A stretch of 43,255 bases of DNA from positions 1 to 43,255 of the forward strand of contig SCOE01000045.1 in the NCBI GenBank assembly GCA_005503065.1, read 5' to 3'. Of this stretch, positions 9,657 to 23,743 are shown in pieces; the stretch's first letter is position 1; every line of letters begins with the position of its first letter. The notes beneath the pieces are model-generated. The model was not told the origin of the DNA and made no database searches. It saw only the letters and a program-made list of their open reading frames with translations. The DNA is from Comamonadaceae bacterium ALPHA2B. Lineage in GTDB: Bacteria; Pseudomonadota; Gammaproteobacteria; Burkholderiales; Burkholderiaceae_C. The translations under genes were made by a program, and so were the position numbers.

Positions 9657-10754
9657 ATGTCCATGTCCAACATTCCCCTCGCGGCGGGCGCTGCCCCGAT
9701 GCCGCTGACCCACCGCTGGAACAACTTCGACGCGCTGCGCATGGGCGCCGCGCTGCTGGTCCTGGTGTCGCATCAGTTCTCGCTCACCGGCCGCAGCGAG
9801 CACGGGCTGTTCGAAGTGCACTCCTGGGGCGGTGTGGCCGTGCTCATCTTCTTCTCGATCAGCGGCTTTCTCGTGGCCCAGAGCTGGGACAACGATCCGC
9901 GGCCCCACACGTTCATGGCGCGCCGCCTGCTGCGCGTGTGGCCGGCACTGGCAGTGGCGGTGGTGCTGAGCGCCTGCGTGCTCGGGCCGCTGATCGGCAG
10001 CATGAGTTGGCAGGAGTACGTGCACGACCCGTTCTTCCGGCGTTATTTCCGCATCCTGCGCTTCAAGAACGAGCTGTTCCTTCCCACCGGCTTCGACGGC
10101 AACCTGCTGGCGCGCGTGATCAACGGCTCGCTCTGGACGATCCCGATCGAGATGAAGTGCTATGTGCTGCTGGCCGCGATCGGCACGCTGGGCCTGCTGC
10201 GGCCGCGCTGGCGCTGGCTCGTCGCGCTGCTCGTGCTTGCGACTGCCGTCGGCTATCTGTGGCCCACACCCTGGCGCTACGGCTGGAGCGAGCGCCGCGA
10301 CATGCCGCTCGAGTTCATGCTGTGCTTCTTCGCGGGCGTGGTGTGCCATCACCACCGAGCCCGCACCACGGGCCGCGCGGCATGGCCGCTGCTCGTTGCG
10401 GCATGGGCGGCGGGCGCGCTGGCATTCGCGGCCGGCCAGCAGGTACTGGCCCTGGTGCTGTGGGTGCCGCCCACGGCCATCGCCTTCGGGACATCGGCCT
10501 GGCCGGTGGTCCGGCGGCTCGGGCGCTTTGGCGATGTGTCCTACGGGCTGTACATCTATGCCTTCCCGACCCAGCAGCTGATGATCTGGCTCTTCAAGGA
10601 CCGCCTGCCCTGGGCGATGGTGCTGGCCCTCTCGATCGGTGCCACGCTGGTGCTGGCCTTCGCGTCCTGGCACCTGGTCGAGAAGCACGCGTTGCGATGG
10701 AAGCCGCGCGCGCCCCGACAGGCGGCTCCCGTTGCGCCGACCGCGCTCGCATAA
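9657..10754 (+). CDS. Membrane acyltransferase (acyltransferase 3 / OafA-like)
   Basis: A 365-residue integral membrane protein of the acyltransferase-3 family, which transfers acyl groups from the cytoplasmic side to sugars or other envelope components. The start of the domain, W-N-N-F-D-A-L-R-M-G-A-A-L-L-V-L-V-S-H-Q-F-S-L, carries the catalytic-type histidine; F-S-I-S-G-F-L-V-A and F-M-A-R-R-L-L-R-V-W-P-A (with the R-x-x-R pair) follow, as in the family. About ten hydrophobic helices can be counted. A second ATG six bases downstream (9663) is equally possible. A larger open frame extends upstream through the LysR gene but has no family support. Acceptor unknown; the neighbours give no polysaccharide cluster. 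Confidence 0.88.
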   Translation: MSMSNIPLAAGAAPMPLTHRWNNFDALRMGAALLVLVSHQFSLTGRSEHGLFEVHSWGGVAVLIFFSISGFLVAQSWDNDPRPHTFMARRLLRVWPALAVAVVLSACVLGPLIGSMSWQEYVHDPFFRRYFRILRFKNELFLPTGFDGNLLARVINGSLWTIPIEMKCYVLLAAIGTLGLLRPRWRWLVALLVLATAVGYLWPTPWRYGWSERRDMPLEFMLCFFAGVVCHHHRARTTGRAAWPLLVAAWAAGALAFAAGQQVLALVLWVPPTAIAFGTSAWPVVRRLGRFGDVSYGLYIYAFPTQQLMIWLFKDRLPWAMVLALSIGATLVLAFASWHLVEKHALRWKPRAPRQAAPVAPTALA

Positions 10755-10784: not shown

Positions 10785-11240
10785 ATGTCGTCGATCACCC
10801 TCCGCTTCCTGGCAGAACCCAGCACCGTCAACTTCGGCGGCAAGGTGCATGGCGGCACCGTCATGAAGTGGATCGACGAGGCGGGCTACGCCTGCGCCAC
10901 GAGCTGGTCGCGCAACTATTGCGTCACCGTCTTCATCGGCAGCATCCGCTTCCATCGCCCGATCATGATCGGCGACCTGGTCGAGGTGGAAGCCCGGCTG
11001 GCCTACACCGGCAATACCAGCATGAACATCTCGGTCGAGGTGCGCAGCGGCGACATGAAGGGCGGGCAGATGACCAAGACGACCGAATGCCTGATCGTCT
11101 TCGTGGCCGTCGATTCGCACGGTCGGCCTTTGCCGGTGGATGCCTTCACGCCGGGCACGCCGGGCGAGATGGCACTGGCGGAGCGTGCGCGCGCCCACCT
11201 CGACGCGGCCAAATCGGTGGCAACCTCGACCGCGGCCTGA
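10785..11240 (+). CDS. Acyl-CoA thioesterase (hot-dog fold, YciA-like)
   Basis: A 151-residue single hot-dog domain thioesterase that should hydrolyse acyl-CoA to the free acid and CoA. The motif N-F-G-G-K-V-H-G-G-T-V-M-K-W-I-D-E-A-G (residues 16-34) contains the asparagine, the H-G-G turn and the catalytic aspartate D31 of the YciA/ACOT group, followed by F-I-G-S-I-R-F-H-R-P-I-M-I-G-D-L-V-E. GAAGG lies 7 bases before the ATG and CATAAT at 10750-10755 may be its -10. It is on the same strand as the acyltransferase, 30 bases downstream, and could be cotranscribed. Chain-length preference cannot be read. Confidence 0.88.
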   Translation: MSSITLRFLAEPSTVNFGGKVHGGTVMKWIDEAGYACATSWSRNYCVTVFIGSIRFHRPIMIGDLVEVEARLAYTGNTSMNISVEVRSGDMKGGQMTKTTECLIVFVAVDSHGRPLPVDAFTPGTPGEMALAERARAHLDAAKSVATSTAA

Positions 11241-11264
11241 AGGCGCCTGGCGAGGGCAGCAGCC

Positions 11265-11516
11265 ATGCACGACCCCGCCGCCCTTCAGCCGCCCGGCGAG
11301 GCCCGCGCCGGGCTCACGCGCGGCGAGCGCATCGCCGGCTGGGCTGCCGGCCTGCTCTTCGTTGCGCTCGGGATCGCTGTGCTGGCCGGCAGCGGCGACA
11401 TGGCCGCCGGTCCACTCGTGGCCGCCGCTGCGCTGGCGGGGCTGGGCGCGCAGGCGCTGTGGGCCACGGCGCGGGGCCGGCGCTCCTGGCTCGCGCGCAT
11501 CGGGCCGCTGCCCTGA
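11265..11516 (+). CDS. Small predicted inner-membrane protein, unknown function
   Basis: An 83-residue protein with two hydrophobic segments (residues about 25-42, W-A-A-G-L-L-F-V-A-L-G-I-A-V-L-A, and 47-67, rich in A and L) joined by a short G-S-G-D-M loop, and a basic tail R-G-R-R-S-W-L-A-R, giving a likely hairpin with both ends in the cytoplasm. I do not recognise a family. It starts 24 bases after the thioesterase stop and may be in the same transcript. Composition matches its neighbours. It could be a spurious frame in GC-rich DNA, but two clean membrane segments and tight spacing argue for a real gene. Confidence 0.5.
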   Translation: MHDPAALQPPGEARAGLTRGERIAGWAAGLLFVALGIAVLAGSGDMAAGPLVAAAALAGLGAQALWATARGRRSWLARIGPLP

Positions 11517-11619
11517 GCGGCACATCCTCCCCGCCTCCAGTTCATTGAGTTCCGTGGGCAGTCCAGCCCCTTGGACACGGCCTGCCGTCGCGGTCGCGCG
11601 ACTGTTTCAACGTGCACAA

Positions 11620-11642
11620 CATGTTTCTCAGAGCGAAACATG
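11620..11642. promoter_or_regulatory. Perfect inverted repeat, predicted IclR operator
   Basis: CATGTTTC (11620-11627) and GAAACATG (11635-11642) form perfect 8-base arms with a 7-base spacer, ending one base before the -35 of the nine-gene operon. Position about -60 to -37 fits an activator site. The right half-site GAAAC-N3-ATTGT recurs at 21326-21338 next to iclR, at the same distance from an identical -10, so the IclR protein at 20542-21303 is the probable ligand. Confidence 0.65.
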
Positions 11643-11643
11643 A

Positions 11644-11672
11644 TTGTGACTGACGCAACGACTGCCTAGAGT
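11644..11672 (+). promoter_or_regulatory. Promoter of the nine-gene operon
   Basis: TTGTGA (11644-11649) and TAGAGT (11667-11672) are spaced by 17 bases; transcription would start near 11679, leaving a leader of about 38 bases before ATG 11717. The block CCTAGAGT-N-CGCTCC is shared with the promoter at 21335-21363. Confidence 0.6.
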
Positions 11673-11716
11673 TCGCTCCCATCCCGACGCGAAGACGTCG
11701 GCACGGAGACGAACCG

Positions 11717-12673
11717 ATGCAGCCCACCCTGGTCCCACGCACGACGCAGCCGCTCGCGGCCTGCGATGCCGTGGACGCACGGCCGGTTCCGTTCTCTGCC
11801 GGCACGCTGCCGCCCGCCATGCCGCTGCCGGCAGGCGCGTGCGATGCCCACATCCACGTCTACGACGCGCGCTTTCCCGCCGTGCCCGGCGCACGCCTGA
11901 TGCCGCCCGACGCCAGCGTGGCGGACTACCGCCGCCTCCAGCAGCGCACCGGGCTGCGCCGCGCCGTGTTCGTCACCCCGTCCACCTACGGCACCGACAA
12001 CCGCCCGATGCTGCAGGCGTTGCAGGCCTTCGGCGACGATGCGCGCGGCGTGGCCGTGATCGACGGCACCGAGGCCGATGCCGTGCTGGCACGCCTGCAC
12101 GCCCAGGGCGTGCGCGGCGTGCGGCTGAACCTCTCGCTGGGCGTGGGCACGCATGCGGACATGCTGATGCCCATTGCGCAGCGCATCGCGCCGCTGGGCT
12201 GGCATCTGCAGTTGCTGATGCCGGCGGATGTGCTGCAAGGCCAGGCCGCCGTGCTCTCCGCACTGCCCGTGCCCGTGGTCTTCGACCACTTTGCGCGGCT
12301 GTCGCCCGCCGATGCCGGCCGCCATCCCGCGCACGCCGTGGTGCTGCAACTGCTGCGCGCCGGCCGCGCCTGGATCAAGCTGTCGGGCGGCTACCTGGTG
12401 AGCCCCACGCACAGCACCGAGGACCCGGCGCTCGACGACCTCGCCCGCAGCTTCCTCGACGCCGCGCCCGAGCGCGTGGTCTGGGGCAGCGACTGGCCCC
12501 ATGCCACCGCCACCGCCGGCCTGCAGCCCTTGCCGGACGACGCCCGCCAGCTCGACCGGCTGGCGCAATGGACCGGCGGCGGCGAGCTTTTCGCGCAGGT
12601 GCTGGTGCGCAACCCGGCCGTGCTCTACGGCTTCGGCCCCGTTTCCGACCCCCCAGAGAGAACAGAGACATGA
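11717..12673 (+). CDS. Amidohydrolase A (LigI/GalB-like lactonase family)
   Basis: A 318-residue TIM-barrel hydrolase. C-D-A-H-I-H (H45, H47) is the metal-binding H-x-H of amidohydrolases, V-F-D-H-F-A-R carries a later histidine and V-W-G-S-D-W-P-H the conserved aspartate near residue 262. The overall layout resembles the 2-pyrone-4,6-dicarboxylate lactonase (LigI) and galactarolactone isomerase group, which act on lactones or cyclic esters; the exact substrate is unknown. It shares V-T-P-S-T-Y-G-T-D-N and many other stretches with the gene at 18506-19432, so they are paralogues. It is the first gene of the operon and its stop overlaps the next start (ATGA at 12670-12673). Confidence 0.85.
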   Translation: MQPTLVPRTTQPLAACDAVDARPVPFSAGTLPPAMPLPAGACDAHIHVYDARFPAVPGARLMPPDASVADYRRLQQRTGLRRAVFVTPSTYGTDNRPMLQALQAFGDDARGVAVIDGTEADAVLARLHAQGVRGVRLNLSLGVGTHADMLMPIAQRIAPLGWHLQLLMPADVLQGQAAVLSALPVPVVFDHFARLSPADAGRHPAHAVVLQLLRAGRAWIKLSGGYLVSPTHSTEDPALDDLARSFLDAAPERVVWGSDWPHATATAGLQPLPDDARQLDRLAQWTGGGELFAQVLVRNPAVLYGFGPVSDPPERTET

Positions 12674-13662
12674 CCTCCTCATCCACATCCCTGACCCGCC
12701 GCTCCCTCATCGCCGGTGCCTGCGCCCTGCTCGCCACGGGCGGCGCCTGGGCCCAGGGCGACTGGCCCACCGGCCGCGTCATCACCTGGGTCGTGCCCTA
12801 TCCGCCCGGCGGCGGCACGGACGTGCTGGGCCGCGCCGTGGCGCAGAAGCTCGGCGGCACGCTGGGCACCAACGTGATCGTGGACAACCGCGCCGGCGCC
12901 ACCGGCACCATCGGGGCGGCCTACGTCGCCAAGTCGGCGCCCGACGGCTACACGCTGCTGGGCACCACCATCGGGCCGCAGGCCATCGCGCCGCACCTGA
13001 TGGGCAAGCTTCCCTACGACCCGATCGGCGGCTTCGCGCCGGTGGCGATCATCGGCACCATCCCGCACATCCTGGTGGTGGGCGCCAACCAGCCCTACCG
13101 CAGCGTGGCCGACCTGCTGGCCGCGGCGAAGGCGCAGCCCGGCAAGCTGGCCTTCGCCTCGGGCGGCACCGGCACCATCCTGCAGATGCAGGGCGAACTG
13201 CTGGCACAGCAGACCGGCAGCCGCTTCATCCACGTGCCCTACAAGGGCGACGCCCCTGCGGTGCAGGACACGCTGGGCGAGCAGGTGAACTTCATGTTCG
13301 CCCCGGCCGCCGCGGCGCTGCCGCATGTGCAGTCCGGCCGGCTGCGGGCGCTGGCCGTCACCTCGGCCGCGCGCCTGAAGCCGCTGCCCGACGTGCCCAC
13401 CATGGGCGAGGCCGGCATCAAGGACTTCGTCGTCGAGCAATGGCAGGCCGTCTTTGCGCCGGCCGGCACGCCGGCGCCCATCGTCGATCGCCTCAACCGG
13501 GAGGTCAACGCCGCCCTCAAGACCCCCGACCTGGTCGCCCTGGCCGACAAGCTGGGCGTGAACCTGGTGGGCGGCACGCCCGCGCAGCTGGGCGCGCTGC
13601 AGAAGGCCGACTCCGCCAAGTGGGCCGAGGTCATCCGCAAGGGTGGCATCAAGGCCGATTGA
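12670..13662 (+). CDS. Bug-family (TctC) periplasmic solute-binding protein
   Basis: A 330-residue binding protein. The signal peptide carries L-T-R-R-S-L-I-A-G (possible twin-arginine signal) and a G-A-W-A-Q cleavage site. The mature protein begins D-W-P-T-G-R-V-I-T-W-V-V-P-Y-P-P-G-G-G-T-D, the first strand and ligand loop of the family, and ends with the standard K-W-A-E-V-I-R-K-G-G-I-K tail. ATG 12670 overlaps the upstream TGA, implying coupled translation with amidohydrolase A and so a shared ligand or pathway. Membrane subunits are absent from the window. Confidence 0.9.
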   Translation: MTSSSTSLTRRSLIAGACALLATGGAWAQGDWPTGRVITWVVPYPPGGGTDVLGRAVAQKLGGTLGTNVIVDNRAGATGTIGAAYVAKSAPDGYTLLGTTIGPQAIAPHLMGKLPYDPIGGFAPVAIIGTIPHILVVGANQPYRSVADLLAAAKAQPGKLAFASGGTGTILQMQGELLAQQTGSRFIHVPYKGDAPAVQDTLGEQVNFMFAPAAAALPHVQSGRLRALAVTSAARLKPLPDVPTMGEAGIKDFVVEQWQAVFAPAGTPAPIVDRLNREVNAALKTPDLVALADKLGVNLVGGTPAQLGALQKADSAKWAEVIRKGGIKAD

Positions 13663-13714
13663 TCCTTTCCGTTTCTTCCACCTCCTCCTCTCCTCCTACG
13701 ACTGAGCCAACGCC

Positions 13715-14401
13715 ATGAGCCAACTCCCAGAAATCATCCGCGACATCGAACGTGTCGCCCCCGAGGTCGTCGCCAAGGCCAAGACCTTCCAGGCGGCCAT
13801 CCTGGCCGACGTGGCCGGTCGCCGCGGCACCATGAACGCCCGCGTCGCGCCGGTGGACGACAAGATGATCGTCGCCGGCCCGGCCTTCACCGTCGAAGTG
13901 CGCCCCGGCGACAACCTGATGATCCATGCCGCCATCGCCCTGGCCAAGCCGGGCGACGTGCTGGTGATCGACGGCAAGGGCGACCAGACCGCCGCCCTCA
14001 TGGGCACGCTGATGCTCAGCGCCTGCAAGAAGCGTGGCCTGGCCGGCGTGATCGTCGACGGCGCGATCCGCGACAAGCTGGAACTGCTGCAGCTGGACTT
14101 CCCGGTCTTCAGCGCCGGCTTCAACCCGGCCGGCCCCACCAAGTTCGTGCCCGGCCGCATCAACCATCCGATCTCGGCCGGCGGCGCCAGCGTCAACCCG
14201 GGTGACCTGGTGGTGGGCGATGCCGACGGCGTGGTCGTCATCGAGCGCGAGAAGGCGCCCGCCATGATGGACCTGGCCGACAAGAAGGTGGCCGACGAGG
14301 CCGCTCGCCTCGAATCCATCGCGCGCGGCGACACCGCCGCCAAGTGGCTGCCCGCCGCGCTGCGTGCAGCCGGCGTGCTCAAGGAAGGCGAATCGCTGTG
14401 A
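13715..14401 (+). CDS. RraA/LigK-type aldolase (4-carboxy-4-hydroxy-2-oxoadipate aldolase-like)
   Basis: A 228-residue protein of the RraA/HMG-aldolase family, class II metal-dependent aldolases and oxaloacetate decarboxylases that cleave 4-hydroxy-4-methyl/carboxy-2-oxo acids to pyruvate plus a keto acid. Key pattern: D-G-K-G-D-Q-T-A-A-L-M-G about residues 86-97, then V-D-G-A-I-R-D with the substrate-binding arginine (R119) and metal-ligand aspartate (D120). Length and motifs fit LigK/GalC better than the RNase E inhibitor RraA (about 160 residues). It starts 52 bases after the Bug stop and its TGA overlaps the next start. In this operon it is the best clue that the pathway ends in pyruvate or oxaloacetate; that is inference. 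Confidence 0.85.
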   Translation: MSQLPEIIRDIERVAPEVVAKAKTFQAAILADVAGRRGTMNARVAPVDDKMIVAGPAFTVEVRPGDNLMIHAAIALAKPGDVLVIDGKGDQTAALMGTLMLSACKKRGLAGVIVDGAIRDKLELLQLDFPVFSAGFNPAGPTKFVPGRINHPISAGGASVNPGDLVVGDADGVVVIEREKAPAMMDLADKKVADEAARLESIARGDTAAKWLPAALRAAGVLKEGESL

Positions 14402-15312
14402 GCACGGTCCTCGTCACCGCCGCCGACCTGGCGCCGCAGGCCCTGGACCTGCTGAAGAACCTCGAGGTGGTCTACGCCGGCAAGACGCCGACCGAAGAGG
14501 ACCTGGTGGCCCTGGCCAAGCGCCATGACCCGGTGGCCATCATCGTCCGCTACGGCAAGGTGGGCGCGGCGGTGATGGACGCGGCGCCCTCGCTCAAGGT
14601 CATCTCCAAGCACGGCAGCGGCACCGACACCATCGACAAGGTGGCCGCCCAGGCGCGCGGCATCGAGGTGGTGGCCGCCGTGGGCGCCAACGCCGCCGCC
14701 GTGGCCGAACAGGCCCTGGCCCTGATGCTGGCCTGCGCCAAGTCGGTGGTGCCGCTGGATGCGCGCATGCACGCCGGCCACTGGGACAAGGCCACGCACA
14801 AGAGCCTGGAACTGGGCGGCCGCACCGTCGGCCTGGTGGGCCTGGGCGCCATCGGCCAGCGCTTCGCACGCATGGCACATGGCATCGGCATGCGGGTGAT
14901 CGGCTTCGACCCCTTCGCCAAGAACCTGCCCGACTACATCCAGACCGTGGACCTCGCCACGATCTGGCGCGAAGCCGACGTGATCTCGCTGCACTGCCCG
15001 CTGACCGACGAGAACCGCGGCATGCTCAATGCCGAGACGCTGGCCCAGTGCAAGCGCGGCGTGATCGTGGTCAACACCGCGCGTGGCGGCCTGATCGACG
15101 AGGCGGCGCTGCTGGCCGCGGTGCGTTCGGGCCAGGTGGCCGGCGCAGGCCTGGACAGCTTCGCGGTCGAACCGATGACGGCGGGCCATCCCTTCCAGGG
15201 CCAGGAGCGCATCGTGCTCAGCCCGCACATCGGCGGCGTGACCAGCGACGCCTACGTCAACATGGGCGTGGGCGCGGCGAAGAACCTGCTGGCGGTGCTC
15301 GCGCGCGGCTGA
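14398..15312 (+). CDS. D-2-hydroxyacid dehydrogenase (NAD-dependent)
   Basis: A 304-residue member of the D-isomer-specific 2-hydroxyacid dehydrogenase family. V-G-L-G-A-I-G-Q-R-F-A-R is the NAD-binding glycine motif; V-N-T-A-R-G-G-L-I-D-E-A-A-L holds the substrate-binding arginine, and L-S-P-H-I-G-G-V-T the catalytic histidine. GTG at 14398 is taken as start because it overlaps the previous TGA (GTGA) and AAGGAAGG lies 9 bases upstream; an upstream in-frame start lies inside the aldolase gene. It would reduce a 2-keto acid or oxidise a 2-hydroxy acid. The pairing with an aldolase suggests conversion of a hydroxy acid to the keto acid that is then cleaved, or the reverse. Confidence 0.9.
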   Translation: MSTVLVTAADLAPQALDLLKNLEVVYAGKTPTEEDLVALAKRHDPVAIIVRYGKVGAAVMDAAPSLKVISKHGSGTDTIDKVAAQARGIEVVAAVGANAAAVAEQALALMLACAKSVVPLDARMHAGHWDKATHKSLELGGRTVGLVGLGAIGQRFARMAHGIGMRVIGFDPFAKNLPDYIQTVDLATIWREADVISLHCPLTDENRGMLNAETLAQCKRGVIVVNTARGGLIDEAALLAAVRSGQVAGAGLDSFAVEPMTAGHPFQGQERIVLSPHIGGVTSDAYVNMGVGAAKNLLAVLARG

Positions 15313-15401
15313 AGTTCACGGCAGACATGCGCTGCCGGCGAGCCCGCTGGCAGCGCGCAGGGCCTCCTCGACGACGGCCCCATCGACAAAGAGACAAGAC
15401 C

Positions 15402-16415
15402 ATGACCCATCGACTTTCGCTTGGCCTGCTCGCCGCCGCACTCACCGCTGCGCTGTCGGGCTGCGCCGGTGCGCCGCCGGCGGCGCAGAAGCCGTCCGAG
15501 GCCAGCATCGCGGCCCATGTCGCCGCGGCCACGCGTGCCGCAGGCGGCGACCTGGGCGAGGTGCTGACGCTGTGCAAGCCGGTGCCCGCCGCCCGCCCGG
15601 TGCAGGACGAGGCCGCCGACCGCGGCCTGCGCGCGCTGATCGCCCGTCCGGCCCCGCCGCCCGGCCGTGCCTTCGACAACCTGTACTTCGTGGGCGGCGA
15701 CTGGGCCAGCGCCTGGGCCATCGACACGCCCGAAGGCATCATCCTGATCGACGCCCTCAACAACCAGGTCGAGGCCACGGCCCTGATCGAGGGCGGCATG
15801 CGCAAGCTGGGCCTGGACCCGGCGCGCATCCGCTACATCGTCGTCAGCCACGGCCATGGCGACCACTACGGCGGTGCGCCCTACCTGGCGCAGAAGTACG
15901 GCGCCCGCGTGGTCATGAGCGACATCGACTGGACCATGATGGAGACGCGGCTGGAATTCGCCACGCCCATCTGGGGCGCGCCGCCCAAGCGCGACATCAG
16001 CGTCAAGGACGGCAACAAGCTGACGCTCGGCGGCACCCGCCTCACGCTGTACGTGACGCCCGGCCACACCTGGGGCACGCTGTCGCCGGTGTTCGACGTC
16101 ACCTGGCAAGGCCAGAAGCACCGCGTGCTGCTGTGGGGCGGCACCGGCTTCAATTTCGGCGCCGACATTCCGCGGATGGAGGCCTACGGCCGCTCCACGC
16201 AGCGCATGGCCCAGGTCGTGCGCGCCGAAGGCATCGACGTGATGCTGTCCAACCATTCGCGCATGGACGGCTCGCAGGGCAAGCTGGCCCGGCTGCGCGA
16301 GGCGGGCAGCGGCCCCAACCCCTTCGTGATCGGCGAGCCGACGGTCGAGCGGACGCTCACCGTGATGAACGAATGCTCGTTGGCGCAGCGGGACCGTTTC
16401 GCCCTGCTTCCCTGA
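15402..16415 (+). CDS. Metallo-beta-lactamase-fold hydrolase, lipoprotein
   Basis: A 337-residue secreted metallo-hydrolase. The N-terminus has a lipoprotein signal with lipobox L-S-G-C (C21), so it should be anchored in the outer or inner membrane. The zinc motif H-G-H-G-D-H (H150, H152, D154, H155) is complete, G-H-T-W-G carries the next histidine and S-N-H-S-R-M a further one near the C-terminus, an arrangement like subclass B3 enzymes. Within this operon it more likely hydrolyses a lactone, ester or other catabolic intermediate outside the cytoplasm than a beta-lactam. It starts 89 bases after the dehydrogenase gene. A longer upstream frame is rejected because it would bury the lipobox. 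Confidence 0.85.
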   Translation: MTHRLSLGLLAAALTAALSGCAGAPPAAQKPSEASIAAHVAAATRAAGGDLGEVLTLCKPVPAARPVQDEAADRGLRALIARPAPPPGRAFDNLYFVGGDWASAWAIDTPEGIILIDALNNQVEATALIEGGMRKLGLDPARIRYIVVSHGHGDHYGGAPYLAQKYGARVVMSDIDWTMMETRLEFATPIWGAPPKRDISVKDGNKLTLGGTRLTLYVTPGHTWGTLSPVFDVTWQGQKHRVLLWGGTGFNFGADIPRMEAYGRSTQRMAQVVRAEGIDVMLSNHSRMDGSQGKLARLREAGSGPNPFVIGEPTVERTLTVMNECSLAQRDRFALLP

Positions 16416-16470
16416 GCGGGAATGCGCCTCTGCGCGCATGACCACCTCGATATTTCCAAGGAGACACATC

Positions 16471-17448
16471 GTGAAGACATCCAATTTCAAGGCCGCTCTG
16501 CTGGCCGCGTTCACCACGCTCTGCTTCGGCGCATCCGCGTGGGCACAATCCGCCTGGCCCGACCGGCCGATCAAGCTGGTGGTTCCCTATCCTGCAGGCG
16601 GCAACGCCGACAGCACGGCCCGCCTGCTGGCGACGCAGCTGTCGGACCGGCTGGGCCAGCAGGTCGTGGTGGACAACAAGCCGGGCGGCGGCGGCACCAT
16701 CGGCGCCACGGCGGTGGCGAAGTCGCCCGCCGACGGCTACACGCTGCTGCTCGACGCGACGGCCTTCACGGTCAACCCGAGCCTATTCAGCAAGCTGCCC
16801 TACGACCCGGTCAAGGACTTCGCGCCGATCTCGCAGATCACCCGCGTGCCCATGCTGCTCGTGGTGCCTGCCGCTTCGCCGCTGAAGTCGGTTGCCGACC
16901 TGGTTCGCGCCGCGAAGGCCTCGCCCGGCAAGCTGAGCTATGCGTCGGCCGGAAACGGGGGCGCGCAGCATCTGGCCGCCGAGCTCTACAAGCAGGGTGC
17001 CAAGCTCTCGATGGTGCACATCCCCTACCGCGGCGGTGCGCCCGCATTGACCGACCTGGCGGGCGGCCAGGTGGACCTGATGTTCAGCGCCACCTCGGCA
17101 TCGGGCACCTTCGTGAAGAGCGGCAAGCTGCGCGCACTGGCCATCACCTCCGCCGAGCGCTCCGCGGACTGGCCGGACCTGCCGACGGTGGCCGAAGGCG
17201 GACTGCCGGGCTTTGCGGTCTATGAGTGGAACGGACTCTTCGCCCCGACGGGCACGCCGCCGGCCGTGTTGCAGCGGCTGGAGACCGAGACGCGCGCGGC
17301 GCTGGCCTCGCCCGAGCTGAAGTCGCGCCTGTCGGACCTGGGCGTGCAGCCCGTGGGCTCCAGCAGCGCGGACTTCCGCCGCTTCGTCCAGGCGGAGACC
17401 ACGCGCTGGGCCGACGTCATCAAGCGCGCGGGCATCCGCATGGATTGA
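16471..17448 (+). CDS. Bug-family (TctC) periplasmic solute-binding protein, GTG start
   Basis: A 325-residue binding protein with signal V-K-T-S-N-F-K-A-A-L-L-A-A-F and cleavage at A-W-A-Q. The mature part shows P-I-K-L-V-V-P-Y-P-A-G-G-N-A-D and S-P-A-D-G-Y-T-L-L. GTG 16471 is chosen over the in-frame ATG 16438 because AAGGAG lies 7-8 bases before the GTG and the residues added by ATG are not signal-like. The first of two Bug genes in tandem; the pair may have arisen by duplication, though the two proteins differ at many positions. Fifth or later gene products in this operon would need to be exported together with the lipoprotein hydrolase. Confidence 0.9.
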   Translation: MKTSNFKAALLAAFTTLCFGASAWAQSAWPDRPIKLVVPYPAGGNADSTARLLATQLSDRLGQQVVVDNKPGGGGTIGATAVAKSPADGYTLLLDATAFTVNPSLFSKLPYDPVKDFAPISQITRVPMLLVVPAASPLKSVADLVRAAKASPGKLSYASAGNGGAQHLAAELYKQGAKLSMVHIPYRGGAPALTDLAGGQVDLMFSATSASGTFVKSGKLRALAITSAERSADWPDLPTVAEGGLPGFAVYEWNGLFAPTGTPPAVLQRLETETRAALASPELKSRLSDLGVQPVGSSSADFRRFVQAETTRWADVIKRAGIRMD

Positions 17449-17513
17449 GCGCAAGCGCTGCCTACCCGTCTTGTCCGCTGCGTGCAGCCAACCCAACATC
17501 CCGCCTTCACACC

Positions 17514-18509
17514 ATGACCTCCTCGAATACCCAGGCGCTGCGGCGCTGCGCCATCGCCGCGCTGCTGGCCCTGCCTCTTCTTGCAGCATCCACCCTTGCC
17601 TCGGCCCAGACCGACTGGCCCAACCGCACGGTGAAGATCGTCGTTCCCTATGCCCCCGGCGGCGCGGTGGACGTCGTGACGCGCAAGATGGCGCAGAAGC
17701 TCGGCGAGCAGACCGGCCAGAGCTTCATCGTCGAGAACAAGCCCGGCGCCAGCAGCACCATCGGCGCCATGCAGGTGGCCCGGTCCGAACCGGATGGCTA
17801 CACCCTGGTGGCCAACGACACGACCTATGCCCTGTTGCCGCACATCTTCAAGAAGCTGCCCTTCGACCAGGCCAACGACCTGCTGCCCGTCAGCGCCTTC
17901 GTGTTCGCGCCGCTGACCCTGGCGGTGAACGGCAACTCGCCCTACAAGACCCTGCCCGAGCTGCTGGCCTTCGCCAAGGCCCACCCGGGCCGCGTGACCT
18001 ACGGCAGCGGCGGCGCCGGCACGCTGCCGCACTTCAGCGCGGAAGCCCTGGGCCTGGCGACCGGCACCAAGCTGCTGCACGTGCCTTTCAAGGGCGCGGC
18101 CGAAGCCACGCAGGCGGTGCTGGGCGGCACGATCGACATGCAGTTCGCCTCGCCGTCGGGCGTGATCGGCAACGTGAAGGGCGGCAAGCTGCGCCTGCTG
18201 GCCATCAGCGGCGACCGCCGCGTGCCCCTGCTGTCCGACGTGCCCACCTTCGCCGAGGCCGGCGTGAAGGACTTCGGCGTGATCAACTGGACGGGCCTGT
18301 GGGCGCCGAAGGGCACGCCGCCGGCCGTCATGCAGCGGCTGCAGGCCGAGATCGCCAAGGCCATGAAGACCGAGGACATGAAGGCCTTCGCCGAAAGCGT
18401 GGCCGCCGAGCCGCGCCAGCTCGACGCCGAGGCCTTCGGCAAGCTGCTCAAGGACAGCACGGCACGCTGGGGGCAGGTGGTCGCCCAATCCGGCTTCGAG
18501 AAGCAATGA
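17514..18509 (+). CDS. Bug-family (TctC) periplasmic solute-binding protein
   Basis: A 331-residue binding protein with a long hydrophobic signal (A-I-A-A-L-L-A-L-P-L-L) cleaved near A-S-A-Q. The ligand loop reads V-P-Y-A-P-G-G-A-V-D, and the second domain carries Y-G-S-G-G-A-G-T-L-P-H-F, slightly different from the usual S-x-x-H-L. Its TGA overlaps the ATG of amidohydrolase B (18506-18509), mirroring the overlap of amidohydrolase A with its own Bug gene, which links each binding protein to one hydrolase. The start ATG lies 65 bases after the preceding Bug stop; no strong ribosome site is visible. Confidence 0.9.
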   Translation: MTSSNTQALRRCAIAALLALPLLAASTLASAQTDWPNRTVKIVVPYAPGGAVDVVTRKMAQKLGEQTGQSFIVENKPGASSTIGAMQVARSEPDGYTLVANDTTYALLPHIFKKLPFDQANDLLPVSAFVFAPLTLAVNGNSPYKTLPELLAFAKAHPGRVTYGSGGAGTLPHFSAEALGLATGTKLLHVPFKGAAEATQAVLGGTIDMQFASPSGVIGNVKGGKLRLLAISGDRRVPLLSDVPTFAEAGVKDFGVINWTGLWAPKGTPPAVMQRLQAEIAKAMKTEDMKAFAESVAAEPRQLDAEAFGKLLKDSTARWGQVVAQSGFEKQ

Positions 18510-19432
18510 GCACGCCGTCCACCGCTGCGGCGAGCGGTGCCGCAGGCGCGGCCTGGTCCGTTCCGCATTCGGCGGGCGACCGGGCGCCTGCCCTGCGGCT
18601 GCCGCCGCTGGCCTGCGACAGCCACATGCACATCTTCGACCCGCGCTTCGCGCCATCGAAGCACTGGAAGCGCCAACCGCCCGATGCGCCGGTGGCCGCC
18701 TACCGGCAGCTGCAGGCGCGCCTGGGCACGCAGCGGGCGGTGGTGGTCACGCCCTCCACCTACGGCACCGACAACGCCTGCACGCTCGACGCGCTGGCGC
18801 AGCTGAGCGAGGCCGCGCGCGGCGTGGCCGTGGTCGAAGCGGGCGTGGAGGCCGCCGAGCTGCAGCGCCTGCACGGCTTGGGGGTGCGCGGGTTGCGCGT
18901 CAACTTCGTGACGCCGCAGTCCTGGGGCACGACCACGCCCGACATGCTCGCCACGCTGGCGGCCAAGGTCGAGCCCCTGGGCTGGCACATCCAGGTCTTC
19001 GTGCATCCGGAGCAGCTGCTGGCCATGGCCGGGCTGCTGCGCGGGCTGCCCGTGCCGCTGGTGGTGGACCACATGGCGCGGCTCGACCCCGCCCAGGGCG
19101 CGAGCGGCGAGGCCTTCGACCTGCTGTGCAGCCTGCTGGATGCGGGCAACACCTGGGTCAAGCTCTCCGGCGCCTACATGCGCTCCTCGGTGGGCGGACC
19201 GACCTATGCCGACACCCTGGCCGCCGGCCAGGCGCTGGTGCGCCGCGCGCCCGAGCGCCTGGTGTGGGGCAGCGACTGGCCCCACACCACCGAGACGCCG
19301 GGCAGCGTGGACGATGCCGCCCTGGTCGACCTGCTCGGCCGCTGGTGCGAGGGCGATGCCGGGCGCATCGCGCGCATCGTGGTCGACAACCCGGCGAAGC
19401 TCTACGACTTCGGCCCCACGCCTTCTGCCTGA
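18506..19432 (+). CDS. Amidohydrolase B (LigI/GalB-like lactonase family)
   Basis: A 308-residue TIM-barrel hydrolase, paralogue of the gene at 11717-12673. C-D-S-H-M-H (H40, H42) is the metal H-x-H, V-V-D-H-M-A-R a conserved histidine, and V-W-G-S-D-W-P-H-T the late aspartate. The N-terminal 35 residues are alanine-rich and poorly ordered, as in the paralogue. The region between residues 130 and 150 (T-P-Q-S-W-G-T-T-T in place of S-L-G-V-G-T-H) differs, which may reflect a different substrate. Start set by the ATGA overlap with the Bug gene. Confidence 0.85.
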   Translation: MSTPSTAAASGAAGAAWSVPHSAGDRAPALRLPPLACDSHMHIFDPRFAPSKHWKRQPPDAPVAAYRQLQARLGTQRAVVVTPSTYGTDNACTLDALAQLSEAARGVAVVEAGVEAAELQRLHGLGVRGLRVNFVTPQSWGTTTPDMLATLAAKVEPLGWHIQVFVHPEQLLAMAGLLRGLPVPLVVDHMARLDPAQGASGEAFDLLCSLLDAGNTWVKLSGAYMRSSVGGPTYADTLAAGQALVRRAPERLVWGSDWPHTTETPGSVDDAALVDLLGRWCEGDAGRIARIVVDNPAKLYDFGPTPSA

Positions 19433-19446
19433 AAGAGCGAAGACCC

Positions 19447-20361
19447 ATGTTCCTTCTGCAACCGCCCCAGGTGCGCGAACTGACCCTGTTCAGCGCCATG
19501 CCCGACGAGTTCCGCCGCCCGCGCCGCAGCGACTGGGCCGACGCCAACCGCGGCGGCACGCCTGCCGATTCCTTCCTCGAAGGGCCCGTGTTCGATGACG
19601 CCGGACACCTCTACGTCACCGACATTCCCTGGGGCCGCGTGTTCCGCATCGACCCGCAGGGCCGCTGGTCGCTGGTGGCCGAGTACGAGGGCGAGCCCAA
19701 CGGCATGAAGTTCCTCGACGCCGGCACCCTGCTCATCACCGACTACAAGAACGGGCTCATGCAGCTGGACGTGGCCAGCGGCCGCGTCACGCCCTTCCTG
19801 GCGCGGCGCAACAGCGAGCGCTTCAAGGGCGTCAATGACCTGGTCTTCGACCGCGCCGGCAACCTCTACTTCACCGACCAGGGCCAGACCGGCCTGCAGG
19901 ATCCAACCGGTCGGCTCTACCGCCTGTCGCCGGACGGCCGGCTGGACCAGTTGCTGGGCAACATCCCCAGCCCCAACGGTGTGGCCCTGTCGCCCGACGA
20001 GAAGGTGCTCTACCTGGCCGTGACGCGCGGCAACTGCGTGTGGCGCGTGCCGCTGCTGCCGGACGGCAGCGTCTCGAAGGTGAGCCAGTTCTTCACCTCG
20101 TATGGTGCCAGCGGCCCCGACGGCCTGGCCGTGGACACGCAAGGCCGCGTGCTGGTGGCCAACCCGGGACTGGGCTACGTCTGGGTGCTCAACACGCGGG
20201 CCGAGCCGGTGCAGGTGCTGCGCGGCCCGGCCGGCGCATCGATCACCAACCTCGCCTTCGGCGGGCCGCAGCGGCGCACGCTCTTCGTCACCGACTCCAC
20301 CCACGGCCGCGTGCTGACGGCGGAGATGGACGAGGCGGGCCTGCCACTGGCGCGGCGTTGA
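19447..20361 (+). CDS. SMP-30/gluconolactonase-like protein
   Basis: A 304-residue six-bladed beta-propeller of the SMP-30/gluconolactonase/LRE family, metal-dependent lactonases. The metal ligands expected for the family are visible: glutamate in F-L-E-G-P-V-F-D (E45), asparagine in S-P-N-G-V-A-L-S-P-D, and aspartate in G-P-D-G-L-A-V-D. No signal peptide is seen, so it should be cytoplasmic. It starts 14 bases after amidohydrolase B and is the last gene of the operon. A second lactonase-type enzyme beside two LigI-like amidohydrolases strengthens the view that the pathway handles lactones. Confidence 0.88.
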   Translation: MFLLQPPQVRELTLFSAMPDEFRRPRRSDWADANRGGTPADSFLEGPVFDDAGHLYVTDIPWGRVFRIDPQGRWSLVAEYEGEPNGMKFLDAGTLLITDYKNGLMQLDVASGRVTPFLARRNSERFKGVNDLVFDRAGNLYFTDQGQTGLQDPTGRLYRLSPDGRLDQLLGNIPSPNGVALSPDEKVLYLAVTRGNCVWRVPLLPDGSVSKVSQFFTSYGASGPDGLAVDTQGRVLVANPGLGYVWVLNTRAEPVQVLRGPAGASITNLAFGGPQRRTLFVTDSTHGRVLTAEMDEAGLPLARR

Positions 20362-20438
20362 CCGAGCCAATTCATCGAGTCAGCAGTCCGGAAAGATCGC
20401 GGAGCAGACCACACCAGGGCACCCGCGGAACTGGCCTT

Positions 20439-20463
20439 GGCCTGTCCTGAGCTTGTCGAAGGG
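20439..20463. repeat. Dispersed short repeat element
   Basis: The 25 bases between operon end and iclR contain CTGTCCTGAGCTTGTCGAAG, a sequence I recognise as a widespread intergenic repeat in many proteobacterial genomes. It lies between partly complementary GGCC-rich flanks (20433-20440 and 20462-20470). Recognition is from memory, not a search. Confidence 0.5.
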
Positions 20464-20480
20464 CCAGGCCGCAGGGTGCG

Positions 20481-20536
20481 CCCCCCTCCAAGCCGAAGGC
20501 GCCAGAGAGGGGGGAGCCGCGAAGCGGCTTGGGGGG
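20481..20536. terminator. Large GC hairpin between convergent genes, possible repeat/terminator
   Basis: Arms CCCCCCTCCAAGCCG (20481-20495) and CGGCTTGGGGGG (20525-20536) enclose about 29 bases. It lies between the 3' ends of the nine-gene operon and iclR, where a bidirectional stop would be expected, but no T-run follows, so intrinsic termination is uncertain. The sequence looks like a repeat common in Comamonadaceae intergenic regions (from memory). Confidence 0.45.
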
Positions 20537-20541
20537 TGACT

Positions 20542-21303
20542 TCAAGGATGCCAGCGTGAGACCACCGGCGGCGTCGCCGGCGAGCGGCCGCCGGCCAGCG
20601 CGTACGACAGCTGGTTGGCCGCCGCCACCACGGTCCGTGCGTATTTTTCCAGCTTGGCCCGCGTAAGCCGCGAGCTGGGTCCCGAAATGCACATCGAGCC
20701 CAGCAGGTTCCAGCCGGTACGGAACACCGGCGCGGCCACGCTCGACACGTCCGGCTCGCGCTCGCCCAGCGAGATGTGGAAGCCGCGGGTGCGGATCGTT
20801 TCGTAAGGCTCCCCCTGCGCGCCGCTGAAGGCCAGGATCACCCGCCCCGGCGCGCCCAGGTCCAGGGGCAGCCGCGCGCCGATGCGCACGTGGTGCCGCA
20901 CCGACTGCGGTCCCTCGGCGCGCGCCACGCAGGCCCGGATGTCGCCTTCGCGCACATAGAAGGACGCGCTCTCGCCAGTGAGTTGCACCAGTTCGTGCAG
21001 CGTGGGCTCGACCACGTTGTTGACGTCGAAGCCGGCCTGGTAGCGTGCGCCCAGCCAGCCGGCCGCCGGCCCCAGCCGCCACTGGCCCGCCTCCGTCTGC
21101 ACCATGTAGTTCGACTGCGCCAGCGTGCGCGCCAGGCGCAGCACCGTGGTCTTGTGCATGCCGCTGCGGCGGCTCAGTTCGGCCAGGCTGAGGGCAGACT
21201 CGCCCACCTCGAAGGCCTCCATCAGCGACAGCGCGCGGGTGACGGCGATCACGCCGCCGTCGCCTCGCCCTTCGGCCGCTTCTTTCGGGGAATCGTTGCG
21301 CAT
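20542..21303 (-). CDS. IclR-family transcriptional regulator
   Basis: A 253-residue regulator. The N-terminal winged helix reads V-I-A-V-T-R-A-L-S-L-M-E-A-F, then L-S-L-A-E-L-S-R-R-S-G-M-H-K-T-T-V-L-R-L-A-R-T-L, typical IclR DNA-binding; the C-terminal effector domain has G-R-V-I-L-A-F-S and V-S-S-V-A-A-P-V-F. ATG 21303 is chosen because the DNA-binding domain starts about 20 residues later; longer upstream frames enter the divergent promoter. It lies between the nine-gene operon (convergent) and a Bug gene (divergent). The shared promoter design at 11620-11672 and 21312-21370 suggests it regulates both, as well as possibly itself. Confidence 0.9.
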   Translation of the reverse strand: MRNDSPKEAAEGRGDGGVIAVTRALSLMEAFEVGESALSLAELSRRSGMHKTTVLRLARTLAQSNYMVQTEAGQWRLGPAAGWLGARYQAGFDVNNVVEPTLHELVQLTGESASFYVREGDIRACVARAEGPQSVRHHVRIGARLPLDLGAPGRVILAFSGAQGEPYETIRTRGFHISLGEREPDVSSVAAPVFRTGWNLLGSMCISGPSSRLTRAKLEKYARTVVAAANQLSYALAGGRSPATPPVVSRWHP

Positions 21304-21311
21304 GTCGGACC

Positions 21312-21338
21312 TCGGTTCGCTGAACGAAACGACATTGT
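21312..21338. promoter_or_regulatory. Predicted IclR operator upstream of Bug gene
   Basis: An imperfect palindrome TTCGCTGAACGAA (21316-21328) leads into GAAAC-N3-ATTGT (21326-21338), matching the operator half-site at 11635-11647. A second GAAAC lies at 21346-21350, 20 bases further, about two helical turns. Located in the 110-base divergent region between iclR and the Bug gene. Confidence 0.55.
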
Positions 21339-21363
21339 ATGGATTGAAACCCCCACCTAGAGT
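21335..21363 (+). promoter_or_regulatory. Promoter of the Bug gene at 21414
   Basis: TTGTAT (21335-21340), 17 bases, TAGAGT (21358-21363). The -10 and following CGCTCC are the same as at the nine-gene operon promoter. On the opposite strand TACAAT within 21334-21339 could serve as -10 for iclR, so the two promoters would overlap. Confidence 0.6.
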
Positions 21364-21413
21364 GCGCTCCGGGACGCGATTCCTGCGTTCAGAACACAGT
21401 CGGAGACAAACCC

Positions 21414-22385
21414 GTGAAGACATCCCGCCGCGCCGCGTTGGCGCTCGCTGCCGCATCCCTGCTCGCCGCCACCGTGGCCCAGGCCGAGACCTGGCCCGCC
21501 CGCCCGATCCGCCTCGTCGTGCCCTTCCCGGCCGGCGGCGGCACCGACATCATCGCCCGCGAGCTGACCAACAAGCTCGGCAGCTACGGCTACAACTTCG
21601 TGGTCGACAACAAGCCGGGCTCCGGCGGCAACCTGGGCGTGGACGCCGCCGCCAAGGCCGCGCCCGACGGCTACACGCTGGTGCTGGGCCAGACCAGCAA
21701 CCTGGCGATCAACCCGACGCTCTACACCAAGCTGCCGTACGACCCGCTGAAGGACCTGGCGCCGATCAGCCTCGTGGCGACCTCGCCGCTGGTGATCGTG
21801 GCCGGCACCGCCACGCCCTACAAGACGCTGGGCGACGTGGTGAAGGCGGCGAAGGCCAAGCCCGACAGCATCAACTACGCCTCCTCGGGCAACGGCACCG
21901 TGGCCCACCTGGCCATGGAGTCCTTCCAGAAGGCGGCGGGCGTCAAGCTCACGCACATTCCGTACAAGGGCGCGGCCCAGGGCGTCACCGACGTGATCAG
22001 CGGCCAGGTGCAGCTGTACGTGTCCTCGGTGCCCACGCTGCTGCCCCACATCAAGTCCGGCAAGATGCATGCGCTGGCGCTCACCTCGCTGCAGCGCACG
22101 CAGGACCTGCCCCAGGTGCCCACCGTGGCCGAATCGGGCTACAAGGGCTTCGAGGCCATCACCTGGTTCGGCATCCTGGGCCCGGCCGGCCTGCCCAAGG
22201 AGATCGTCGCCAAGCTCAATGCCGACATCAACAAGGCGCTGCAGGACCCGGCACTGAAGCAGAAGCTCTCGGGCCAGGGCGCCGACGTGCAGGGCAGCAG
22301 CGCGGCCGACTTCGCCAAGCTGATCCGCGACGACATCCCTCGCTGGGGCAAGCTGGTGAAGGACTCGGGCGCGAAGGTCGATTGA
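21414..22385 (+). CDS. Bug-family (TctC) periplasmic solute-binding protein, GTG start
   Basis: A 323-residue binding protein. Signal [18 protein letters not shown], cleaved near V-A-Q-A. The mature first strand and loop are P-I-R-L-V-V-P-F-P-A-G-G-G-T-D; also A-P-D-G-Y-T-L-V and S-S-G-N-G-T-V-A-H-L. GGAG lies 10-11 bases before GTG 21414. It is a single-gene unit divergent from iclR and followed by a strong terminator. Because its promoter resembles that of the nine-gene operon, it is probably a further binding protein of the same regulon. Confidence 0.92.
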   Translation: MKTSRRAALALAAASLLAATVAQAETWPARPIRLVVPFPAGGGTDIIARELTNKLGSYGYNFVVDNKPGSGGNLGVDAAAKAAPDGYTLVLGQTSNLAINPTLYTKLPYDPLKDLAPISLVATSPLVIVAGTATPYKTLGDVVKAAKAKPDSINYASSGNGTVAHLAMESFQKAAGVKLTHIPYKGAAQGVTDVISGQVQLYVSSVPTLLPHIKSGKMHALALTSLQRTQDLPQVPTVAESGYKGFEAITWFGILGPAGLPKEIVAKLNADINKALQDPALKQKLSGQGADVQGSSAADFAKLIRDDIPRWGKLVKDSGAKVD

Positions 22386-22404
22386 GGTCGGCGCGGGCCA
22401 AGAG

Positions 22405-22443
22405 AAAACCCTGTCCGACGCGCCGCGCCGGACAGGGTTTTTT
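22405..22443. terminator. Bidirectional intrinsic terminator
   Basis: AAAACCCTGTCCG (22405-22417) pairs with CGGACAGGGTTTT (22429-22441) around an 11-base loop; T-runs follow on both strands (TTTTTT on plus, TTTTCTCTT on minus). It lies between the convergent Bug gene and fahA and would end both transcripts. Confidence 0.9.
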
Positions 22444-22457
22444 CACGTTGCGATCGC

Positions 22458-23723
22458 TCAGGCGACGACGGTCCCGCTCGCCTCGCCCAAGCCGATGCGC
22501 ACCGCGCCCTCGCGCTCGCACCAGCCGCGCAGGATCAGCGTGTCACCGTCCTGCAGGAAGGTGCGCTGCTCGCCGTTGGGCAGTGTGAAGGGTTGCTTGC
22601 CGCCCACGCTCAGTTCGGTGAACGAGCCGGCGGCGTCCATCGTGGGGCCCGAGAGCGTGCCCGAGCCGAGCAGGTCGCCCGCCTGCAGGTTGCAGCCGTT
22701 GACGGTGTGGTGCGCCACCAGCTGTGCCGGCGTCCAGTAGGCCGCGTCCTTGAGTTTGCCCAGCGTGAGCCGCGCCGGGGCCTGCCCGTCGGCGCGCATC
22801 TTCGCGGTCTGGATGAGCACTTCCAGCGTCATGTCGACATGGCCCTGCGCACGGTTGTCCGCACTGTCGAGGTAAGGCAGCGGCTGCGGGTCGCCTTCGG
22901 GCCGCGTGAAGGGCGCGCGGAAGGGCGCCAGGGCCTCCATGGTCACGATCCAGGGTGACACGGTGGATCCGAAGTTCTTCGACAGGAAGGGTCCCAGCGG
23001 CTGGTATTCCCAGGCCTGGATGTCGCGCGCCGACCAGTCGTTGAAAAGGGCCACGCCGAACAGGTGCTGCTCCGCGGCGTCGATGCCCACCGGCGCCCCC
23101 AGCGCATTGCCCTGGCCGATGAACCACGCCAGTTCGAGCTCGTAGTCCAGGCGCTTGCAGGGACCGAAGCTCGGCTCGGCGGCGTCCGGCGCCTTGGTCT
23201 GCCCTTGCGGGCGCTTGACCGGCGTGCCGCTCACGATGATGGAGCTGGCGCGGCCGTGGTAGCCGATGGGTACCCACTTGTAGTTGGGCAGCAGCGGGTT
23301 GTCGGGGCGGAACTGGCGGCCGATGTTGGTGGCGTGGTGCACGCTGGTGTAGAAGTCGGTGTAGTCGCCGACGTGGCAGGGCACGTGCATGGTCACGGCC
23401 GAATGGTCCACCAGCGCGCTTTCCCATGCAGCTTGAAGGGCGCTACCGGAAGCAAGGCCTTCCGAAATCCGCAAGCGCAGCGCGCGCCGCTCCTCCGGCG
23501 TGGCGGCCATCAACACATTCATGTCATCCGTGTCGATCAGCTTTGCCATCCGCAGATCAAGAATCTTGTCGCCGATCGCGACGCCAATGCGCGGATGAGG
23601 TCTTGGTGCGCGGCTATACGTTCCGAACGGCAGGTTCTGGATCGGGAAATCGCAGCCCGCCACATTGGCGGAGGCGACCCAGCTCGTGCGCTTCGGGTCG
23701 TGGGTGATGTCGAGGGCGGTCAT
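22458..23723 (-). CDS. fahA: Fumarylacetoacetase
   Basis: A 421-residue fumarylacetoacetate hydrolase, the last step of homogentisate breakdown (fumarylacetoacetate to fumarate and acetoacetate). Hallmarks: H-V-G-D-Y-T-D-F-Y-T-S-V-H-H-A-T-N-I-G with the catalytic histidine and metal aspartate, Y-E-L-E-L-A-W-F-I-G with two metal glutamates, and F-N-D-W-S-A-R-D-I-Q-A-W-E-Y with the third acidic ligand. Length matches the long eukaryote-like enzyme rather than the short FAH-domain hydrolases. ATG 23723 has AAGGA about 9 bases upstream; a GTG at 23747 overlaps the previous stop (GTGA) and is an alternative adding 8 residues. It ends the operon, 15 bases before the terminator region. Confidence 0.95.
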   Translation of the reverse strand: MTALDITHDPKRTSWVASANVAGCDFPIQNLPFGTYSRAPRPHPRIGVAIGDKILDLRMAKLIDTDDMNVLMAATPEERRALRLRISEGLASGSALQAAWESALVDHSAVTMHVPCHVGDYTDFYTSVHHATNIGRQFRPDNPLLPNYKWVPIGYHGRASSIIVSGTPVKRPQGQTKAPDAAEPSFGPCKRLDYELELAWFIGQGNALGAPVGIDAAEQHLFGVALFNDWSARDIQAWEYQPLGPFLSKNFGSTVSPWIVTMEALAPFRAPFTRPEGDPQPLPYLDSADNRAQGHVDMTLEVLIQTAKMRADGQAPARLTLGKLKDAAYWTPAQLVAHHTVNGCNLQAGDLLGSGTLSGPTMDAAGSFTELSVGGKQPFTLPNGEQRTFLQDGDTLILRGWCEREGAVRIGLGEASGTVVA

Positions 23724-23743
23724 GTGTGTGTGTTTCCTTGCAT

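Follow-up and report, generated by a model that had tools for sequence, protein, structure and literature searches.

The two 60-base stretches at 11621-11680 (copy A) and 21312-21371 (copy B) of the window, that is, the whole 43,255-nucleotide stretch of DNA analysed, are very likely two copies of one control region, each joining an IclR-family operator to a weak sigma-70-type promoter and both run by the product of the iclR gene. As the preliminary description had it, iclR (20542-21303, minus strand) lies between both target promoters, and ten genes stand behind them, nine at 11717-20361 and one at 21414-22385. Its proposal that these genes form one regulon under iclR is strongly supported by comparison, which shows the IclR orthologue, the operon and the site to be passed on jointly and the site to fit the IclR group-1 motif. 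The tandem array, the probable autoregulation and the second promoter tied to operon splitting are additions to that description. The regulon proposed is a new one of known type, and no description of it was found among the openly licensed papers listed, judged by title and the opening of the abstract.

A recount confirmed that the two stretches are identical at 37/60 positions without gaps. Shifting the copies by one base lowered the matches to 13 or 15, the next-best ungapped match of either 60-mer on both strands of the window was 29 (A) and 30 (B), and the likeness ends at the flanks of the aligned stretch. The elements said to be common to both copies, GAAAC-N3-ATTGT and the pair TTGTGA/TTGTAT with 17 bases before the same TAGAGT, were present as claimed. 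When the genome to which the window belongs (6,000,488 bases) was searched, TTGT-N19-TAGAGT-N-CGCTCC occurred exactly at the two sites only, and with up to three mismatches it gave 12 matches, against 17 for the reversed control. For GTTTC-N7-GAAAC-N3-ATTGT, one of the two sites matched perfectly and the other with 1 mismatch; the next match had 2 and the rest 3, with 18 matches in total against 23 for the reversed control. The check for a pattern common before unrelated genes left the proposal standing. Two further elements held in part. CGCTCC does follow the -10 in both copies, and copy A does carry a perfect 8-base inverted repeat (11620-11627/11635-11642) one base before TTGTGA; however, CGCTCC and the CATG ends of the repeat vary in the genus alignment and were both dropped as functional parts.

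Both promoters are weak and of the sigma-70 type. Promoter A (11644-11672, plus strand) consists of TTGTGA at 11644-11649, 17 bases and TAGAGT at 11667-11672, with CTARAGT kept in 10/10 aligned sequences, while promoter B (21335-21363, plus strand) consists of TTGTAT at 21335-21340, 17 bases and TAGAGT at 21358-21363, with CTAGAGT kept in 11/11 sequences of the genus. Counted manually, the hexamer pairs match the sigma-70 consensus at 8/12 (A) and 7/12 (B) positions, and a consensus scan with a threshold of 9 of 12 listed no promoter in 11000-22800. An explanation by two ordinary sigma-70 promoters and nothing more was rejected, since the scan lists none and the likeness reaches upstream of the -35 with IclR-type symmetry. 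The terminator scan found 4 against 4.4 expected and was not used as evidence.

The shared part of A and B is very probably best read as an IclR-family operator with a 17-bp inverted repeat, GTTTC-N7-GAAAC in copy A, upstream of the -35. In Suvorova and Gelfand (2021, PMC8222616), the IclR group-1 motif is given as GKTYCRYW3-4RYGRAMC, of the GTT-11-AAC type. The form GKTYCRYW3RYGRAMC, which equals its own reverse complement, was found in the window with 1 mismatch at 21314 and 2 at 11623, and nowhere else with up to 2 mismatches. These two positions mark site 1, the core of the proposed operator, which reads GTTTC-N7-GAAAC in copy A (11623-11639, centre 11631, plus strand; 15/17 against the consensus) and GGTTC-N7-GAAAC in copy B (21314-21330, centre 21322, plus strand; 16/17). 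In both copies a weaker repeat, site 0, lies 19 bp upstream of site 1 and another, site 2, lies 20 bp downstream. In copy A, site 0 is GTTTC-N7-ACAAC (11604-11620, centre 11612, plus strand), with 3/8 arm positions symmetric, and site 2 is ATTGT-N7-GCAAC (11643-11659, centre 11651, plus strand), which overlaps the -35. In copy B, site 0 is GTTGC-N7-GGACC (21295-21311, centre 21303, plus strand), which overlaps the iclR start codon, and site 2 is ATTGT-N7-GAAAC (21334-21350, centre 21342, plus strand), which overlaps the bug3 -35 and whose complement holds TACAAT, a possible iclR -10. Taking +1 as seven bases past the -10, the site centres fall at about -67, -48 and -28, which puts the -35 inside site 2.

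In the window the symmetry of sites 0 and 2 is poor (3-5 of 8 arm positions), while their spacing lies within the tandem range of 18-22 bp given for IclR sites in 94 orthologous groups (PMC8222616). The repeat arms are clearer in the consensus of 34 family loci, gGTTgC.CAtggTGcaAt, GTTtCgcTGTgtGAAAC and ATTGTATgGatTGAAAC. According to the same paper, IclR sites are most often centred between -3 and +1 relative to the gene start, and the site over the iclR start fits this. The array differs from the group-1 operators described there in having three repeats in a row, with the outer two weak, and in being present twice, the latter because the operon is split. The paper also describes PcaU/PobR operators as two boxes in a palindrome with an external direct half-site, and the two systems are alike in having a repeat outside the main palindrome at IclR-family sites.

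The A and B promoter regions of the genus Pseudacidovorax were aligned separately, with 10 sequences for A and 11 for B. Kept in A were GTTTC and CACAAC (both 10/10, at site 0), a second GTTTC (GTTGC in one sequence), CGAANC, ATTGTGA and GCAACG (both 10/10, at site 2) and CTARAGT, while B is nearly invariant from the iclR start through CTAGAGT. The core common to A and B in the genus is CGAANC-N3-ATTGT-N7-GNAAC-N6-CTANAGT.

The iclR product belongs to the IclR family by its domains, with HTH_IclR at 44.8 bits (1.1e-11; cut-off 22) and IclR_C at 79.9 bits (2.1e-22; cut-off 24). It matches the NCBIfam model for the PcaR/PcaU/PobR subfamily (TIGR02431) weakly, at 101.3 bits against a cut-off of 284.75, and so is not assigned to that subfamily, and it reached 106.6 bits with BhcR (NF045644), below the cut-off of 350. 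Since the copy B array covers the iclR start codon and the possible iclR -10, we propose that iclR probably controls itself. No good -35 candidate for iclR was evident. In related genomes ATTGTA, the complement of TACAAT, was kept in 33/34 iclR-adjacent family sites, in 11/11 B sites of the genus and in 26/29 loci of a second collection outside the genus, while it occurred in 0/17 A-type sites, which read ATTGTGA, and was also absent from the G323 site and from the second G329 site. The iclR-adjacent exceptions, which tell against this -10, include ATTGTGC, found in G188 and at the B site of G312, and ATAGTA in L202. An in-frame iclR start codon was located within the scanned zone in 33/34 family loci; 29 of these starts lie at 18-23 bases from the core and 19 at exactly 21 (2/19 being GTG). 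The first codons, with the start chosen mechanically, are often ATG AGC AAC or ATG CGC AAC.

The site, the regulator and the operon occur together. Within Pseudacidovorax, an IclR orthologue (E ≤1e-60) was found in 11/15 genomes, its sequence being 86-95% identical among the genus loci, and the 2-hydroxyacid dehydrogenase (d2h) was present in the same 11/15. Exactly two sites were found in each of these 11 genomes and zero in the other 4, all at 0 mismatches with 3 allowed, and the reversed control gave two matches overall; the perfect fit arises by construction, as the pattern was read from genomes of the genus, while the two-site count and the clean absences do not. Gene order is common to ten genus loci with some differences: L055 ends at a contig edge, L051 is without the metallo-beta-lactamase-fold gene, and the Bug genes vary.

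In a family sample of 299 genomes, 4 of them from Pseudacidovorax, the motif (≤2 mismatches) was found in 31 and the IclR orthologue (E ≤1e-85) in 36; 28 genomes have the two together (Fisher p ~7e-29, with no correction for kinship). One genome with the motif and no orthologue at this threshold, G017, has an IclR relative (62%) adjoining the site. No IclR relative or cluster gene was found on the stretches fetched for two other motif genomes, G233 and G302, and their matches were set aside as chance or as sites of another regulator. The G233 match (L166, ~9794-9832; 2 mismatches; identical letters in G302) precedes ORFs that, read by eye, resemble an FAD-type monooxygenase, a MarR-like protein and a homogentisate dioxygenase, and for G302 the stretch covered was a single 3.5-kb contig, on which no cluster gene lies.

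Together with G017, the other 33 genomes with the orthologue gave 34 family loci outside the genus, and the site stands beside iclR, upstream of it, in 34/34 at 0-5 mismatches, with ≤2 mismatches in 26, ≤3 in 31 and 4 or 5 in three; for L132, which is without bug3, the upstream search used a set region of 200 bases. A matrix built from these 34 loci scored 75.0 at B and 45.0 at A, the next best score in the window being -22.2. In 39/39 loci of the second collection, of which ten are from Pseudacidovorax and at least L187 and L193 repeat training genomes, the best matrix match of its strand lay upstream of iclR (29.2 to 80.0), and all other scores were ≤ -11.9. G334 has no match at ≤3 mismatches, yet the matrix places a site in its locus, L204. 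Because iclR and the operon travel as one, their distribution is not by itself enough to tell the regulator fully apart from the operon.

The arrangement of the genes varies between genomes. In 33/34 family loci iclR is divergent to a bug3-like gene, which is followed by amh1 (18), rraA (14) or a bug1 fragment and rraA (1), L132 having none of these. The second collection has 29 loci from other genera: 20 share this divergent arrangement, six, from Variovorax-like relatives, show the split seen in the window, and bug3 is missing from L185, L187 and L192. If the site serves the gene set, split genomes are predicted to have two sites and others one, and this was examined in 28 genomes, with three matches for the reversed control. 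Two sites (≤3 mismatches) were found in five of the six split genomes, and in the remaining one the second site has 4 mismatches; of the 22 non-split genomes, 20 have one site, G329 has two and G334 has none. In 6/6 split loci it is the detached block that has the extra site at its head, and in G329 two Bug genes and an amidohydrolase are inverted as a block with a site of their own (three mismatches) upstream. In G323 (Ramlibacter monticola), the bug3 operon retains a full site, and iclR is absent from the 17-kb stretch; the iclR gene is on a different contig, where its site is weaker (29.2) and the nearest 2.5 kb contain no cluster gene. Site 0 is kept there without an adjacent iclR and is therefore not kept for coding only.

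When 72 IclR proteins were placed on a tree, the 17 split rows grouped with G188 in a single set (support 100/98), which fits one origin of the operon split; the tree counts two label changes, since G188, labelled single, falls inside the split set. This Pseudorhodoferax genome (L132) has iclR and the site, and the cluster genes were not found in its 19-kb stretch; its regulator may have a new target. The ORF beside its site (L132, 10402-11895; 497 aa) has a metallo-beta-lactamase-type domain. From the distribution of these arrangements we infer an ancestral state in which one operator would have served iclR and one divergent operon starting with bug3. With moderate confidence, we further suggest that the operator stays with the pieces of the operon, detached blocks being headed by an operator-promoter copy through one event in a Pseudacidovorax/Variovorax-like clade and separately in G329 and the operon of G323 having kept its site, that the array shapes the first iclR codons (often Met-Ser-Asn or Met-Arg-Asn), and that detached copies lost TACAAT. 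The related genomes make up a natural series of undivided, split, partly inverted and regulator-detached versions, which is useful for asking how regulation survives operon breakage.

In the mechanism proposed here, the IclR protein would bind the 17-bp inverted repeat, whose centre lies some 48 bases upstream of the probable transcription start. The weaker repeats, which flank it on the same helix face at 19 bp (upstream) and 20 bp (downstream), would assist binding by a tetramer-forming IclR protein. Since the downstream repeat covers the -35, repression is the likelier mode, with activation or dual action possible: an IclR multimer would block the -35 of both operons and limit its own synthesis at copy B, and a pathway metabolite, a substrate or intermediate bound at the IclR C-terminal domain, would cause release from the DNA and lift the repression. 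In the Pseudacidovorax/Variovorax-like clade, the other genes, lying beyond iclR, would come under copy A, which perhaps arose by duplication, so that both pieces share one regulator.

The same regulator could act through the same operator as an activator of the operons, perhaps while repressing itself, by aiding RNA polymerase at the weak hexamers from sites 0 and 1. Such a role has a substantial, if less than even, chance of being correct and is nearly as likely as repression: the hexamers are poor, site 1 lies directly upstream of the -35, and the IclR family holds activators, repressors and dual regulators (PMC8222616). What tells against it is the position of site 2, which in each copy extends over the -35 and into the spacer, where a bound protein is expected to block the polymerase.

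Two other readings deny the role of the iclR product itself. The site might belong to another regulator inherited with the cluster, either a global factor or an IclR paralogue, as the co-inheritance of IclR and operon and the G233 match before a different catabolic cluster would allow. We consider this unlikely, because the site fits the IclR group-1 motif, G188 retains iclR and the site where the cluster genes were not found in 19 kb, and a global factor would be expected at more than two places in each genome; the 53%-identical paralogue, moreover, reaches the threshold in 3/15 genus genomes, whereas the sites occur in 11. Similarly unlikely, or slightly more so, is that the likeness of A and B is leftover homology from a promoter duplication with no common regulator. 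It is quite plausible that copy A derives from the iclR-bug3 region, and the same layout of 19 and 20 bp between repeats in both copies would agree with this, but the likeness stops at the flanks, the operator positions are kept within the genus while neighbouring bases change, and the copies are kept in 11/11 genus genomes with the operon and in 6/6 split relatives. Control by the iclR product through a shared operator remains our preferred reading. The paralogue (53-54% identical) was seen at 17942-18670 of L046, 17859-18590 of L048 and 17881-18612 of L049, separated from bug3 by two Bug genes in each; it probably uses another operator, as these genomes still have only two sites.

The ten-gene uptake and breakdown set gains a specific candidate regulator and exact operator bases. 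Its nine-gene block (11717-20361, plus strand), with intergenic gaps of -4 to 89 bases, begins with an amidohydrolase (11717-12673) and continues with a Bug/TctC receptor (12670-13662), an RraA-like protein (13715-14401), a D-2-hydroxyacid dehydrogenase (14398-15312), a metallo-beta-lactamase-fold protein (15402-16415), two Bug receptors (16471-17448 and 17514-18509), a second amidohydrolase (18506-19432) and an SMP-30/gluconolactonase-like protein (19447-20361). The tenth gene, bug3 (21414-22385, plus strand), the first of the proposed ancestral operon, encodes a Bug/TctC solute receptor (TctC 3e-81) and brings the set to four Bug receptors and two amidohydrolases. Among solved proteins, amh2 is nearest to 2-pyrone-4,6-dicarboxylate hydrolase and the RraA-like protein to 4-carboxy-4-hydroxy-2-oxoadipate aldolase, and the set as a whole suggests uptake and breakdown of what is probably a lactone or an aromatic-derived acid. 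A pathway is not assigned, as all ten ORFs scanned stayed below the curated NCBIfam cut-offs. Beyond bug3 and facing it are genes for a fumarylacetoacetate hydrolase-like protein and a homogentisate 1,2-dioxygenase (22458-23747 and 24712-26019, minus strand), near which the matrix found no operator copy.

The gene set resembles the TphR/terephthalate operon of Comamonas, of the same bacterial family, in combining an IclR regulator with a TctC/Bug gene. TphR is accompanied by the Bug gene tphC. The bug3 product is similar to the solved terephthalate-binding protein (9e-65), with Bug27 higher as its best solved relative (1e-67). In contrast, no ring dioxygenase was seen among the families found in the window gene set, and the TphR site TTTTTGCGCATAGCGCAAAAA, as given in PMC8222616, is unlike the operator described here.

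The mid-block Bug genes (16471-18509 in the window, and the same place in L046-L054) are exchanged between genus loci. The bug2 product is 93-95% identical in 3/9 covering genus loci and has a best match of only ~38-48% in 6/9, while the block enzymes are >79% identical. An additional Bug gene lies between smp and iclR in five genus loci.
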